NCBI GenBank assembly: GCA_029932855.1
Contig: JAOZPG010000019.1
Coordinates: 1-40,236 of the forward strand
DNA: 40,236 nt
Source: Bacteroidales bacterium
GTDB lineage: Bacteria > Bacteroidota > Bacteroidia > Bacteroidales > VadinHA17
Reading direction: 5' to 3'
Numbering within the stretch: the stretch's first letter is position 1; the number at the start of each line of letters is the position of its first letter. Below the pieces are notes generated by a model. That model made no database searches and was not told the DNA's origin. It saw nothing but the letters and a program-made list of their open reading frames with translations. A program made the translations under genes and the position numbers. Shown piece by piece: positions 7,273-32,236 of the stretch.

Positions 7273-8958
7273 ATGCTGAAAAAACTACATATCCAGAACT
7301 ATGCACTTATCTCTGAACTTGATATGGAGTTCGATAAGGGACTTACCATAATCTCGGGTGAAACAGGAGCGGGAAAGTCTATATTGCTTGGTGCATTATC
7401 ACTGATACTGGGACAGAGGGCTGATACAGGGGTGCTGAATGATAAGACGGTCAAATGTATTGTTGAGGGCAGCTTCAGTATAGGGAAAAATGAATACAGG
7501 GAATTTTTTGACACGAACAATCTCGATCAGGATGAACTTACAATACTCAGGCGGGAAATAAATATTGCCGGTAAGTCAAGGGCATTTATTAATGACACGC
7601 CGGTGAGTCTGAATGTTCTGAGAGAGCTTGGAATAAAACTGGTGGATATACATTCTCAGCATCATAATATACTATTGGCTGATAATCGTTTCCAGCTTAA
7701 AGTTGTGGATGCTTTTGCAGGAAACGGCAAGCTGCTGGAGTCTTATGGAAAGGAATATAATAGATATAGAAAGCTGTTGACCGGCTATACCGGGCTGAGG
7801 GAGAGGAATGAAAAGGCCAGGTCGGAGCTTGACTATTTTCAGTTTCAATACAGGCAGATGGAGGAAGCAAAACTAAGGGAAGGAGAACAGCAGGAACTTG
7901 AAGAGGAGCAAAAGATATTAAATCACTCAGGAGAGATAGTTGCTTCCCTGAATGCAGTACACCAACACCTTTCATCTGAAGGAAGTGGTATGCTGGAGAA
8001 TTTAAGGGAGATAAGAAAACTTTTTGAAAAGATAAGGGAGTTCTATTCCCCGGCAGCTGAATTATATGAGCGTTTTGACAGTGTGGAGATTGAATTGTCG
8101 GATATTGATTCAGAGCTGGAAATGCTTGCGAGTAAAGTGGAAAATGATCCTTCAAGACTTGCTTTTGTTGATGAAAGGTTAAATCTTATTTACGGGCTTG
8201 AACAAAAGCATAATGCCGATTCTGTTGAACATCTCATAAAAATAAGGGAGGAGCTTAAAGAGTCTATTGAAGGGATAAGCTCATCTGATGAAGAATTGCT
8301 TGCCATGGAGGCTGAACTTGCAGAACGTAAGGCTTTGCTGGGAAAAATGGCAGGGGAGCTTTCCGGGCGGCGGACTGACTCACTCGAGGGGATAAGTGAG
8401 AGAATGATTAACATTTTACAGAAACTGGGAATTCCCAATGCGGCTTTTTCTGTTAAACAGGCAAGGCTTGAGGAACTTTCTCCCACGGGTGTGGACCGTG
8501 TTGATTTTCTTTTCTCCGCAAATAAGAACACCCGGCTTCAGGATCTTAAGAAGGTTGCATCAGGAGGAGAATTATCGCGTGTTATGTTAAGCCTTAAATC
8601 CCTGATTACTGCTGTGCCTTCTGGCAGGCAGGCTGGTTCTTCCCTCCCGACAATAATACTGGATGAGATAGACTCGGGAGTATCGGGAGATATTGCCGAC
8701 AGGGTGGGAGAGATAATATATGCCATGGCTTCAGATATGCAGGTCATAAATATCACCCACCTTCCGCAGATAGCCAGCAAGGGCCTTAAGCATTACCTGG
8801 TATATAAGTCGGATGATGAACACTCCACGCGTACAATGATAAAGCTGCTAAGCAGTGAAGACAGGCTAATGGAGATTGCTAAAATGCTTAGCGGAAAGGA
8901 AATGAGTGAAGCAGCTGTTGAAAATGCCAGGATTTTGCTTAGTAGTTCCAAAGATTGA
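7273..8958 (+). CDS. recN: DNA repair protein RecN
   Basis: RecN is an SMC-like ATPase that acts on DNA double-strand breaks in the cytoplasm. The Walker A motif GETGAGKS is at residues 29-36 and QHHN follows at the end of the N-terminal head. A long coiled-coil arm spans about residues 150-400. The ABC signature ASGGELSRVMLSLKS and Walker B TIILDEIDSGVSG close the ATPase head. The length of 561 residues is normal. An odd PSGRQAG stretch (residues 449-455) sits between the signature helix and Walker B. It is encoded by a GGCAGGCAGG-type sequence (8617-8637) and appears to lengthen a loop that is short in other RecN proteins. Last gene of the bamD run. Confidence 0.95.
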   Translation: MLKKLHIQNYALISELDMEFDKGLTIISGETGAGKSILLGALSLILGQRADTGVLNDKTVKCIVEGSFSIGKNEYREFFDTNNLDQDELTILRREINIAGKSRAFINDTPVSLNVLRELGIKLVDIHSQHHNILLADNRFQLKVVDAFAGNGKLLESYGKEYNRYRKLLTGYTGLRERNEKARSELDYFQFQYRQMEEAKLREGEQQELEEEQKILNHSGEIVASLNAVHQHLSSEGSGMLENLREIRKLFEKIREFYSPAAELYERFDSVEIELSDIDSELEMLASKVENDPSRLAFVDERLNLIYGLEQKHNADSVEHLIKIREELKESIEGISSSDEELLAMEAELAERKALLGKMAGELSGRRTDSLEGISERMINILQKLGIPNAAFSVKQARLEELSPTGVDRVDFLFSANKNTRLQDLKKVASGGELSRVMLSLKSLITAVPSGRQAGSSLPTIILDEIDSGVSGDIADRVGEIIYAMASDMQVINITHLPQIASKGLKHYLVYKSDDEHSTRTMIKLLSSEDRLMEIAKMLSGKEMSEAAVENARILLSSSKD

Positions 8959-14604: not shown

Positions 14605-15238
14605 CTTCTCTCTCTATTTTCTTTTACACTACAAGAATTGTAATCCGGACTTACGCGCAACCATTTTGACTGCTTATACATCTTTTTGTAGTAATTTGGA
14701 CAGATGAAATATGGATATATCAGCTGCAGGTAAGTAACAATTATATGGAAAACAGGGATTATTTAGATTATTTCTAATTAAGTTATAAATTAGCTCAATA
14801 AGGGTATTTGTAATTATTTAAGCATCAGTAATATACATTTTGTAAGCTTTAATAAAAATATCTCAAAAAGCTTTGAAAAGCCTGATATCCTTACATTGTC
14901 TAATTTTTTACTAAATTTGTTTAACCAAAATTTAAATTTATTTAACAGTTTATACTTTATACCCTTAATAAAACAACTTAAAATCAATCTATGACAAAAA
15001 CCCCAGACTCATTTTTCTTTTTTTATTCCGGCTTAATTAAAGCTGGTGTTTTTTAGTTAAGATCATAATTACCGTTTACGAAACTTAAAAAGACATTATG
15101 TTTTCTTTATTGTTTTGTGATAGTGTATTTATATTATAATGTTATCCAAATGTTCTCAACCTGCCGGCTGGCAGGAAGTAATATAGTGAATTACTAAATT
15201 TTAAGCTCTTAATTTTTATAAACCTAAATTTTTTATCT
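14605..15238 (+). other. 634-bp non-coding leader region upstream of susC
   Basis: No credible gene is seen here. The stretch is AT-rich. It contains a -7-like TAAATTTG (14912-14919), an intrinsic-terminator-like hairpin (15028-15055) and a perfect palindrome CCTGCC-GGCT-GGCAGG (15160-15175). A CCCCAG (15001-15006) and a CTGGTG (15043-15048) flank the terminator and could pair in an alternative fold. Such a long leader before a SusC gene leaves room for regulatory RNA or attenuation, but no known RNA family was recognised. Confidence 0.5.
15028..15055 (+). terminator. Possible intrinsic terminator or attenuator in the susC leader
   Basis: The stem CCGGCTT (15028-15034) pairs with AAGCTGG (15040-15046), including one G-T pair, and is followed by TGTTTTTT. 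It sits about 190 bp before the susC ATG on the same strand. Confidence 0.45.
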
Positions 15239-18200
15239 ATGAAAAAAGTTTCAGTTTTATTAACATTTTTGGTGTTTCTTGGCTTACAACTTGTACAGGC
15301 TCAGACCCAGCAAATCACAGGTACTGTAACCAGTGCCGAGGATGGTTTGGGTGTTCCGGGTGCAAGTATTGTTGTTCGGGGAACTACCATTGGTACAGTT
15401 ACTGATATAGATGGTAACTATACACTTGCTGCTCCTGCAGATGCAACCTGGCTTATCTATAGCTTTATTGGTTTGAAAACTCAGGATGTTAGCATTGATG
15501 GTCGTGGTACTATTGATGTAGTACTTGAAGCTGACCAGTTTAAACTTGATGAAGTTATTGTTTCAGGTGTGGCATCCGGAACTCCCAGGAAAAAGCTTTC
15601 GGTATCGGTTGCCAAAGTTGGTGAGGAAGCCCTTAAGGAAGTTCCCGCAACATCTGCAGCCAGTGCTTTATCAGGTAAAGTTGCCGGTGTTACAGTTGTT
15701 CAGGCAACAGGTACTCCTGGTAGTGGTGCAAACATTCGCCTGCGTGGTGCCACCAATATTTATGGCAACTCCTATCCATTGATCATTGTTGACGGTGTAC
15801 AGATGGAAGGTTCTCTTGCTGAAATAAATGTGGACGATATTGAATCTATGGAGGTTGTAAAAGGAGCCTCAGCTTCTGCCCTTTATGGTTCAAAGGCCGG
15901 TAATGGTGTTATTGTAATCTCTACAAAGAGAGGCTCAGGTCTGGCTAAAGGACAGACTGTTGTAACCCTGCGTTCGGAATATGGAAAATCTCAGATTGCC
16001 CATATGATGGAGCTTACTGAGCATCATGCATTTACCCTTAGCGACGACTATGCTTCAGAATCCCGCTATACCAAGTATGACGGTGCTACTTTTTATGGTG
16101 ACGACCCATCACAGACAAATCCCGACAGTATTGGTAAATTATTGTCAGGTTCACGTAACCTTGATCCTGACGGCTATATGGACAATCCTTATGGTGTTTA
16201 CAGGGATCCTATGGGTGAGGCATTTCAAGGTGGTAGCTACTATACTTTATATGCAAACGTAATGGCAAATACCGATAAGACCAACTTTAGTGTTTCTTTC
16301 GAGAATTCAAGCCAGAGTGGTATTATCTATAAGCTTACCGGTTTCCAGCGTCAGAACTTCAGGTTTAATGTTGACCACAGGTTCTCAGAGAAGTTCTCGG
16401 TTTCATTAAGTAATATGTATATACTTTCCAAGACCGATAATAAGGCCTTTAATTTCTTTGACCTCTATCATCAGGCTCCCGATACTGACCTTAACAGGGT
16501 TGGTCCTGACGGTAAGAAGTATGATATAAGGTCAGACCCCTTTACAACAGAGGCAAACCCATTGTATGCTCTTGAATATTCTACAGACGAACAGACAAGA
16601 AACCGTTTTATGGGTGCATACAGCTTTGCATATACCCCTGTTGACTGGTTGAAGTTTGACGGTCATTACAGCTTTGAAAAGATAGACAGGCGCCAGAACT
16701 ATCTGGAACCTTTAGGATACATGAATTGGGGATCTTACCCTGATGTGACAAAAGGAAGAATGACTAAAAACTACAGGGATGATTATTCTCAGGCCCTGCA
16801 GTTTACTGCAAACCTGAACAAGATGTTCGGTGATATTACCTTTAAGGCAAAAGCCAGTTATCGTCTTGAGCAATACGAATGGAGTGGCTTCAATACAGGT
16901 GGCCGTGATTTCCGTGTAACTAATATTCCTGACTTTAACGGTATGGACCAGGCCAAAGCCTATAATGGTTCATATATGGGAAAAACAGTTGCCGAGAACA
17001 TATTCGGAATTGTTGACGTGGACTACCAGGCCAAGTATATTGGATCATTCCTTTACAGGTATGACGGAGCATCACAATTTGGTGAGAACGAGAGATGGCA
17101 ACCATATTACAGGGCTTCAGGTGCATGGCGTATAACCGAGGATTTTGATATTCCGGGTATAAGTGAATTAAAGATACGTGCCGCACACGGAACTTCCGGT
17201 AACCGTCCTCCCTGGTATGCACAATATGAAACATGGAGTTTTGTGGGTGGTAACCCTGTGAAAAGCACACTGGGTAACAAAGACCTCAAGCCTTCTAAGA
17301 TAATAGAAACAGAGATTGGTTTGAATATGGAATTCCTTGATATGTTTGAATTTGAATTTGTTTATTCAATGACTGATGCCAAAGATCAGTATTATGCTGT
17401 TCCTCTTCCGGCCGGATCGGGTTATCCCTACCAATGGCGGAATATGGCTACATTGAGTTCTACAGCACTTGAAGCAACTCTTGGTGCTCATCTGATCAAT
17501 ACACCTGATTTTACCTGGAACATGAATATTACATGGGACAGGATACGCCAGGAAGTCACGGAAATGCTTGTTCCTCCGTTTACTATGGGAGCAAGGGGAA
17601 ACAGTACCGATCCAGGAGCATACTATGTTGCTGAAGGATATGTATTCGGTACTATTTATGGCATTAAGTTCTTGAGAGATCTTGATGCCATGGCTGATCA
17701 GCTGGCAAGGACAGAATCAACAGAGACCATTGATGATTACACACTTAACTCTGACGGATATGTGATTCCTGCAGGAACAGAAGGTACAAGGTATGAATCT
17801 GCTGTAGTTGAGACCGATGATGACGGTAATAACCTGGTTCAGACTATTGGTGATGCAAATCCCGATTTCAGACTGGCTTTTGCAAATACACTGTCATTCA
17901 AAGGATTTACACTTTATGCACTTATTGACTGGAAGCAGGGTGGTGATATTTATAATATGACCAACCAGTGGAACTACAGGGATGACCTGTCTGCTGACGA
18001 GGATATGTTTGACGTGCCTGATGCACAAAAGAAAACAACAGCATACTTCCAGTCACTGTATCATGTAAATGATCTAAACTCTCACTTTATTGAAGACGGA
18101 ACCTATGTTAAGATTAGAGAACTTTCTCTATATTATACTATTGATAAGGAATTCTTCAATTTCTTTAAGAATCTGAGAATTGGTGTTATCGGAAGGAACC

Positions 18201-29844: not shown

Positions 29845-32236
29845 CTTTTTCTTTATCTAATTCATTCAAAAACCGTTCCAATGAGTATTCATCTGCTATA
29901 AGCACCTTCCTGGCTTTACTCCCTTCAAATGCTCCGACTATATTTGCAGCTTCGAGCTGATCTATTATCCTGCCCGCCCTGTTATAACCTATGGAGAGTT
30001 TTCTTTGAATAAGGGATGTGGAACCTTGCTGGTGCAGGACAACAAGCCTGGCAGCTTCTTCAAAGAAGGAATCCCTTTGCCGGGGATCTATATCGCCTGT
30101 ATCCATATTGTCATCTCCGCTATATTCAGGAAGCAGGAAGGCAGTTGGATATCCTCTCTGGGAACCAATGAATTCAGTTAGCCTGTCGAGTTCGGCAGTA
30201 TCTATAAAAGCGCACTGTATACGGGTCAGGTCGCTGCCTTCGCTTATAAGCATATCGCCCCTGCCTACCAGCTGGTTGGCCCCGGGACTGTCGAGTATGG
30301 TCCTCGAATCTACCATTGAGGTAACCCTGAATGCCATTCTGGCCGGGAAGTTAGCCTTAATAACTCCTGTGATAATATTGGTTGTCGGCCTCTGTGTGGC
30401 TATTACAAGGTGTATGCCTATGGCTCTGGCTATCTGGGCAATACGTGCCAGGGGAGCTTCGATTTCCCTCCCTGCTGTCATTATCAGGTCGGCAAACTCG
30501 TCTATTACCAGTACAATGTAAGGCAGGTAGCGATGTCCGTTTTCAGGGTTCAGGTTACGTTTTATGAATTTATCATTGTATTCCTTGATATTTCTTACAT
30601 GTGCTTTTTTAAGAAGGTCATACCTCGAATCCATCTCTATGGTAAGGGAGTTAAGGGTATTTATTACTTTTTGTGTATCGGTAATTATTGCGTCATCCAT
30701 ATCCGGCATCTTGGCAAGGAAGTGCCTTTCAATTTTGGAGTAAAGAGTTAGTTCTACCTTCTTGGGATCAATGAATATGAATTTCAGCTCTGCAGGATGC
30801 TTTTTATACAGCAGGGAGGAGATTATTACATTCAGACCCACAGATTTTCCCTGTCCTGTTGCTCCGGCAACCAGGATATGAGGCATCCTGGTAAGGTCGA
30901 GAATAAAAGATTCATTTGATATTGTCTTACCAATTGCAATTGGAAGTTCATATTTTGTTTCCTGGAACTTAGACGAGCTGATCATTGATTTCATAGATAC
31001 TATCTCGGCCTTTTGATTAGGCACCTCTATCCCTATTGTACCTTTGCCCGGTATTGGAGCTATTATTCTTATTCCAAGTGCAGACAGGCTGAGGGCTATA
31101 TCATCTTCCAGGTTCTTTATTTTTGATATCCTGACTCCCGGGGCGGGCACTATTTCATAAAGGGTAATGGTAGGACCTATTGTAGCCTTTATCTTTTTAA
31201 TGCTTATCTTATAGTTGTCGAGGGTTTCTACGATACGGTTCTTATTATTTATAAGCTCTTCCTTGCTTACCATGGAATCGCCGCTATGATGGTCCTCCAG
31301 AAGGTCTATGGTGGGTGCCTGGTATCCTGCAAGGTCTAGTGTGGGATCGTAATTAGATGTTTGAAGAGGTTTAAGTTCTGATAGTTCTTTTTCTCCTGCT
31401 GATTTTTCTACTGTTAGTTCCACCCCGTCTTCCTGCTTATCTTTCCTGCCTGCCGGTATGGTACCCGGCATGCCCTGCCCGTCTGCATTTAGAGTCTTCG
31501 TACTGAGATCAGGATCAAGATCTTTACTGCCTGTTTCACTTGCTTTATCTTTAGTATCATCCTTGCCGCTTAGTGTATCTGTCCAGCTGTTTGTTTCATC
31601 TTGTATTAAATCCTGTTCTTCAGCAATGATTTCCGTTTTCTTTCTCCTGAACCATTCTATGGCAGGTTTGTATGAAAAAAGAAGATAAGCGAAGTCGGTG
31701 AACAGTATAAGCAATCCTGCACCGGTCATTCCAAGGAATGATTTTAGCCAGCTGCTTATAAACAGGCCATGGGCTCCCCCGGGACCGTTTCCCAGGAATA
31801 CGGAGTTTTCACCTGAGAGGTATGACATGCTAACAGACAAAAGTATAAGTCCTGCCAGACTAATGCGAAGCGTACGCCAGATGGGCAACAGTTTTATTTC
31901 CAGAGAAAAGAGTCCAATAAGAAACAATAATCCCGGAAATATAAATGAGGCAAGTCCAAACCATTGATAAATTAATGTGTAGGCAAGGAATGCACCGGTT
32001 TTACCGGCCCAGTTTTCAACCATTATTTCCTGCGATGAGAAAACTTTCTGGAACTCAAAGCTCTGGTCAACTTGCCATGTAAACAGGTATGAGATAAGAG
32101 CCATTAAAAGGTAGAGGGCGAAGAGTATGAAAAACAAAGCTGTGACAAGTCTGACTCTTTCGTCACGGACAAAGTTTATGATTTTTCCAGGTCCCTGTTT
32201 CTTTTTGCCTGACTTTTTTTTCTTTTTCCCTGCCAT
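29834..32236 (-). CDS. ftsK: DNA translocase FtsK/SpoIIIE
   Basis: FtsK pumps chromosomal DNA at the division septum and links segregation to cell division. The 800-residue protein starts with a Lys-rich tail and about four transmembrane helices (residues about 30-190). A low-complexity cytoplasmic linker (about 200-320) follows. The motor domain has Walker A GATGQGKS (458-465), Walker B YIVLVIDEFADL and the IATQRPTTNIITG stretch. A C-terminal winged-helix gamma domain (QRKLSIGYNRAGRIIDQLEAANIVG) reads orientation sites. The length is normal for Bacteroidota. The linker contains an IPAGRKD stretch encoded by the same GGCAGGCAGG-type sequence seen in recN. Confidence 0.95.
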   Translation of the reverse strand: MAGKKKKKSGKKKQGPGKIINFVRDERVRLVTALFFILFALYLLMALISYLFTWQVDQSFEFQKVFSSQEIMVENWAGKTGAFLAYTLIYQWFGLASFIFPGLLFLIGLFSLEIKLLPIWRTLRISLAGLILLSVSMSYLSGENSVFLGNGPGGAHGLFISSWLKSFLGMTGAGLLILFTDFAYLLFSYKPAIEWFRRKKTEIIAEEQDLIQDETNSWTDTLSGKDDTKDKASETGSKDLDPDLSTKTLNADGQGMPGTIPAGRKDKQEDGVELTVEKSAGEKELSELKPLQTSNYDPTLDLAGYQAPTIDLLEDHHSGDSMVSKEELINNKNRIVETLDNYKISIKKIKATIGPTITLYEIVPAPGVRISKIKNLEDDIALSLSALGIRIIAPIPGKGTIGIEVPNQKAEIVSMKSMISSSKFQETKYELPIAIGKTISNESFILDLTRMPHILVAGATGQGKSVGLNVIISSLLYKKHPAELKFIFIDPKKVELTLYSKIERHFLAKMPDMDDAIITDTQKVINTLNSLTIEMDSRYDLLKKAHVRNIKEYNDKFIKRNLNPENGHRYLPYIVLVIDEFADLIMTAGREIEAPLARIAQIARAIGIHLVIATQRPTTNIITGVIKANFPARMAFRVTSMVDSRTILDSPGANQLVGRGDMLISEGSDLTRIQCAFIDTAELDRLTEFIGSQRGYPTAFLLPEYSGDDNMDTGDIDPRQRDSFFEEAARLVVLHQQGSTSLIQRKLSIGYNRAGRIIDQLEAANIVGAFEGSKARKVLIADEYSLERFLNELDKEKDED

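Follow-up and report, generated by a model that had tools for sequence, protein, structure and literature searches.

Palindromic repeats that lie inside conserved genes have been described before, most closely in Rickettsia. In excerpts of two papers, Rickettsia palindromic elements (RPEs) are reported to occupy intergenic positions and also to sit in frame within conserved protein genes, with repeats also found in RNA genes, and their lengths are given as 105-146 bp and ~150 bp (PMC2229807, PMC10969869). The unit described here is similar as far as those excerpts go, being palindromic, in frame in conserved genes, and also present in RNA genes. However, it is only 20-21 bp long, is a near-perfect palindrome, and is found in Bacteroidota as well as in other contigs.

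REPs form a second point of comparison. They are characterized in an excerpt of PMC3733652 as dispersed palindromes of 20-40 bp, of which some lie in DNA-repair genes and some inside other palindromes, and some RPEs are counted there among the short REPs. On this partial account, the REPs of the GTAG/CGTC type resemble our unit, which is likewise a short dispersed palindrome and lies inside a repair gene. By contrast, the unit carries neither a conserved tetranucleotide tag nor a tail, and it has no clear cognate RAYT. The small dispersed repeats of cyanobacteria are likewise very short and are inserted into genes as well as RNA genes, and by this general description, our unit is like them in both size and location. 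Finally, excerpts of PMC10969869 and PMC2229807 present MITEs as short, non-autonomous, and at times fused in frame. Our unit differs from a MITE in lacking any inner sequence flanked by terminal repeats. A further difference may be the target duplication, which is at most 1 bp at the three sites that could be resolved to the base, although longer direct repeats stand at RecN (4 bp) and possibly at a tRNA (3 bp).

Neither the DNA letters of the unit nor its peptide was found in the open-licence full-text papers searched. The kind of element is already known, because in-frame palindromes have been described for Rickettsia and intragenic REPs, including those in repair genes, are reported in the excerpt of PMC3733652. 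Yet, the unit does not fit this kind plainly, and we regard it as a variant: it is untagged, no Y1 gene is clearly its cognate, and its form is very short and sharp-ended. Our main reading, to which we assign a probability of roughly 0.85 on the basis of assembled sequence, is that the segment inside recN represents a single copy of a mobile palindrome that is non-autonomous and very short.

The recN insertion and its counterparts in other genes

The host gene occupies positions 7273..8958 on the forward strand of the window (the whole 40,236-nucleotide stretch of DNA that was analysed). It is an open reading frame of 561 aa with a phmmer match to RecN 4ad8 (E 1.1e-48). The 21-bp insertion lies at 8611..8635 (forward strand), counting the 4-bp direct repeat GCTG at each end, and the extra DNA reads, in order, GCTG (8611-8614), TGCCTTCTGGCAGGCAG (8615-8631), and GCTG (8632-8635). 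Because GCTG stands at both ends, the insert can be placed in five equivalent ways, from 8611-8631 through 8615-8635. Its palindromic core on the same strand, TGCCTTCTGGCAGGCAGG at 8615..8632, pairs as the hairpin TGCC-TTCT-GGCA and has one mismatch to the palindrome TGCCTNCCGGCAGGCAG, from which TGCCTTCTGGCAGGCAG also differs at one position. The hairpin is a weak fold (z -1.1). Codons 8617-8637 encode P449-S-G-R-Q-A-G455, and seven residues are gained with the reading frame unbroken. Removing the 21 bp leaves a single open frame that reads SLITAGSSLPT, with the spacing seen in relatives such as LITKSVSMPT.

The original prediction was that the loop before Walker B is longer here than in other RecN proteins. 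Alignment with relatives bore this out: the seven residues were missing, and the loop correspondingly shorter, in all 61 other rows that covered the site, representing fewer than 61 distinct genomes because at least three genomes were present in both of the collections used. This alignment included the window protein and 64 loci, 30 of them from a set of 80 genomes (own included; 76 with a match) and 34 from a genome contig collection. One of these loci (L031) came from the window's own genome, and two (L091 and L093) stopped short of the site. The other two genus members (G001 and G002) also lacked the insert in RecN, and the RecN proteins of Deinococcus (4ad8, 4aby) showed a gap at the same place when aligned with the window RecN. 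The segment is therefore not shared by all RecN orthologues of the phylum, as it is absent from the aligned relatives.

An AlphaFold2 model of RecN (23 sequences; mean pLDDT 87.2, pTM 0.67) placed residues 449-456 in a coil that connects helix 431-447 to strand 460-464. This was the only segment of at least three residues with a pLDDT below 50. We take the SGGELS upstream of the insert to be the ABC signature and the strand downstream to be Walker B. Because SGGELS stands before the insert and the Walker B strand after it, the insert extends a loop. Judging from the model, RecN may tolerate the insert because the loop into which it falls, after the ABC-signature helix and before Walker B, is floppy.

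Three more genes carried inserts of seven residues. A 252-aa 2Fe-2S protein of the own genome reads KDEK[DLPAGSQ]GRSIF, and the bracketed residues were missing in 11/11 close relatives. A glycosyltransferase-like protein of the same genome reads LP[PFLPAGS]D, with the insert missing in 5/5 orthologues. The tail of ribosomal protein L22 ended in [AMPAGRQ] or a variant of it in all three genomes of the genus, and this was absent in the two other genomes fetched. We note that the labels glycosyltransferase-like and L22 were given in this analysis and that the 2Fe-2S protein was called NuoG/HoxU-like from its motifs. Together with RecN, each of these genes gains seven residues and reads the palindrome in the frame LPAGRQ, meaning that an in-frame palindromic repeat stands in several unrelated protein genes and is absent in their orthologues. 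The addition of seven LPAGRQ-like residues follows from the inserted length of 21 bp in this genus, and none of the three translated forms of the unit has a stop codon, whichever frame is read. The best reading is thus the one first proposed for recN, a small palindromic element inserted in frame, given that the segment is absent in relatives, matches a dispersed palindrome, and has counterparts of equal length in three more genes.

A suggested relationship to FtsK is less clear. The codons for IPAGR are present in the ftsK linker (31445..31459, reverse strand) and contain the 10-mer GGCAGGCAGG at 31445-31454. The linker is variable, and around the match it is locally 11 residues longer than in G001 and G002, which is suggestive but does not allow the match to be called a clean insertion. 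Palindrome matches in a DegP-like protein and a LysM protein, compared with one and five orthologues, respectively, also fell in variable stretches.

Filled and empty sites and the ends of the unit

The exact ends of an insertion are known only from sites where filled and empty forms agree to the base. At one such site (L258), 21 bp stand between CACCAGGCTTC and AGCCTGGTG, at the centre of a hairpin. Six of the seven aligned, unfilled siblings of this repeat lacked exactly 21 bp (five in G002 and one in G001), and the seventh (L334) lacked 11 bp. Two further filled copies were found at L286/L332 and L288/L326, and the filled copies of one repeat may reflect a single shared insertion event. The repeat itself (L258, L334-L350) is an interspersed element of ~240 bp that carries a CACCAGGCT/AGCCTGGTG hairpin. 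It is abundant in G002, and G001 also has some copies. At a second site, in G001 (L265), CCTGCCTGCCGGACAGGCAGG was inserted between the hairpin arms CCTGAACTTG and TTTCAGGAT, and the empty form of this hairpin occurs elsewhere, in L311 of G002.

The third base-exact site was in an RNA gene. Acido-Lenti-1 RNAs with 20 bp inserted were found in L204 at 2657 and 10699, alongside intact Rfam matches (one in L204 and two in L213, L213:8814-8859), all in one viral-binned contig. At all three sites, any target duplication was at most 1 bp. Direct repeats elsewhere measured 4 bp at RecN and possibly 3 bp (AGG) at a tRNA in L208. This tRNA-Met (L208:2239-2330) holds the 20-mer in its variable arm and was recognised by both ARAGORN and Rfam. 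A similar site in L187 has seemingly lost the T arm and was not recognised as a tRNA.

Other RNA features were also observed. A tRNA-like 5' part at L217:495-560 has the 20-mer at the D-loop position and then continues into other sequence, with no tRNA called. A group I intron was called at L217:1182-1416, and a group II intron match lies at L189:6857-7077 in a viral-binned contig.

To describe the edges of the unit across many sites, we used the viral-contig collection, where "viral" is the collection's label. The 18-mer CTGCCTGCCGGCAGGCAG was found in 35 stretches of this collection, yielding 38 sites with different surroundings, a few of them in related contigs. In 36/38 sites, a C preceded and a G followed the 18-mer, completing a 20-bp palindrome. 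The base beyond these 20 bp was a purine on the left at 31/38 sites and a pyrimidine on the right at 27/38, and none was conserved further out. The sharp edge of the 20-bp palindrome is what should be expected of a mobile unit. Overall, the unit recurs at unrelated sites, relatives or sibling repeats provide the empty counterparts, and its copies occupy loops of proteins and RNAs as well as one protein tail.

Sites in G002, L265, and Acido-Lenti-1 had suggested that hairpin loops are a general preferred target. We rejected this idea, as flanks with a stem of at least 6 were rare: 1/38 viral-contig sites, 0/9 own sites, 4/14 sites of G001/G002 (a pattern that caught 14 sites from 27 loci), and 4/19 sites of G034 (cases that come from arrays of neighbouring copies), compared to a control level of ~2%.

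Spread of the palindrome and competing explanations

Among relatives, the pattern CTGCCN{0,12}GGCAGGCAGG was present in 28/60 genomes (own included), with one control match in all. The largest counts, which include overlapping matches, were 91 (G034), 50 (G059), and 30 (G001). Across the phylum, CTGCCN{0,6}GGCAGGCAG was found in 169/395 genomes, reaching 56 (G086), 49 (G373), 35 (G178), and 34 (G128), and low counts should not be over-read because control matches exceed matches in some genomes (e.g., G426).

The alternative that survives best, though we consider it unlikely, is that the segment belongs to a REP system, in which a RAYT (Y1/TnpAREP) transposase resident in the genome would mobilise it as a REP. 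The REPs placed inside repair genes by the excerpt of PMC3733652 would fit this explanation, as would a Bacteroidetes TnpAY1 subclass flanked by atypical structures, described in an excerpt of PMC6006769. Within the family, the number of Y1_Tnp genes also correlated with the palindrome count (Spearman 0.55, 36 genomes, kinship ignored), compared to 0.08 in 24 genomes outside the family. This correlation could possibly arise from a shared cause, such as general repeat load. At 45 Y1 loci, CTGCC..GGCAG occurred 5 times in the 33.9 kb lying within 400 bp of a Y1 gene and 3 times in the 79.8 kb further away, a ~4x difference in density. In G059, one Y1 gene (L165:1373-2171) has near-identical repeats on both sides, including TGCCGTAGGCA.

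However, three other G+C palindromes clustered much more strongly around these Y1 genes, with near/far counts of 14/1, 10/2, and 9/2 (a fourth was without matches), and CTGCC..GGCAG was found on both sides of a Y1 gene at none of the 45 loci. While 47/60 genomes have a match to PF01797 (Y1), none was detected in the window's own genome (G000, 96% complete) or in G002 (89%), yet G002 contains near-perfect palindrome copies together with empty siblings. Moreover, no conserved GTAG or CGTC tag adjoined the unit across the 38 viral-contig sites. We set aside RAYT as the probable cognate enzyme, since the flanks of Y1 genes in relatives show mainly other hairpins, even though the count correlation remains.

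It is improbable that the recN segment instead arose locally, through slipped-strand or template-switch events at a GGCA/GGCT-rich spot, with its resemblance to sequences elsewhere reflecting codon and composition bias. The 4-bp direct repeat and GGCA tandem at RecN are in line with such an origin, as is the commonness of GGCAGGCAGG. This 10-mer occurs at 37 sites in the genome, where first-order, second-order, and third- or fourth-order models expect 4, 12, and 29-36, respectively. It looks rarer than it really is under a backward control (0) and under dinucleotide shuffles of the window (0.02 expected, 2 seen). Its enrichment is weak once third- or fourth-order composition is allowed for, and GGCAGGCAGG alone therefore means little. 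In the genome search, the longer palindrome is the more telling sequence; the 10-mer by itself was barely above composition.

A local origin is also in keeping with two genes in which matches arose without a gain of seven residues. A helicase-like gene (L099, G000:C9:160547) contains a perfect 17-mer palindrome at unchanged length compared to four orthologues, and the match in pyrC of G034 involved no length change beyond 1-2 residues. These cases indicate that a match to the palindrome is not always an insertion. The remaining in-gene copies of G034 were discarded as candidates, as most of their open frames look spurious.

Against a local origin stands the number of close matches to the full unit, a dispersed palindrome of ~20-21 bp close to CCTGCCTNCCGGCAGGCAGG. 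Clear copies are few in the own genome. At 0, ≤1, ≤2, and ≤3 mismatches to TGCCTNCCGGCAGGCAG, a manual count of the listed places gave 1, 5, 10, and 57 unique sites, compared to means of 0.125, 0.25, 4.6, and 42 (range 31-48 at ≤3) in eight genomes simulated with a third-order Markov model trained on the window. Sites with at most one mismatch are therefore more than chance would provide (5 vs. 0.25), and the excess at ≤3 mismatches is modest. We did not use the raw ≤3-mismatch count (77 rows vs. 2 in a control) as a measure of enrichment, as it comes down to these 57 unique sites against a simulated 42. One possible intergenic copy in the window, CCTGCC-GGCT-GGCAGG at 15160..15175 (no strand assigned), lies ~60 bp upstream of the open reading frame at 15239, and 15157-15178 contains 3-mismatch matches to the palindrome, a degree of similarity that chance often produces. 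Four genes with seven-residue insertions of the same letters, and the sharp 20-bp ends at 36 of the 38 sites in mostly unrelated contigs, also argue against a local event.

Least probable is that the RecN segment is ancestral and was lost by relatives, or is an ordinary lineage-specific loop extension of non-mobile origin; protein loops do vary in length and a single genome carries the RecN insert, but it is absent in both other genus members and every other aligned row, and its letters match the dispersed palindrome.

Proposed movement and significance of the unit

If the recN segment is a copy of a mobile palindrome, as we favor, the copies would have spread by copying and near-blunt insertion. 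Our best guess as to how, offered tentatively and at somewhat less than even odds, is a step through single-stranded DNA, for which an enzyme of the HUH/Y1 type or one associated with replication would act in trans. A more specific proposal, for which we see the odds as only just short of even, is that the 20-21-bp perfect or near-perfect palindrome is itself the mobile unit and would rank among the smallest known. Such a unit would have sharp ends, near-blunt insertion, and a purine|pyrimidine preference, without a tag or a transposase of its own. It would also be free of stops in all frames, be dispersed across Bacteroidota, reach virus-binned contigs, and be able to lengthen proteins by seven residues and give a tRNA an additional arm.

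Rickettsia and the tagged REPs account for most descriptions of in-frame palindromes in conserved genes. Such a short family, whose filled and empty sites can be compared to the base, would offer a clean system for studying the movement of the smallest repeats and the gain of short loops by proteins and tRNAs. Furthermore, this palindrome family would explain LPAGRQ-like stretches in metagenome proteins that could otherwise be mistaken for functional motifs.
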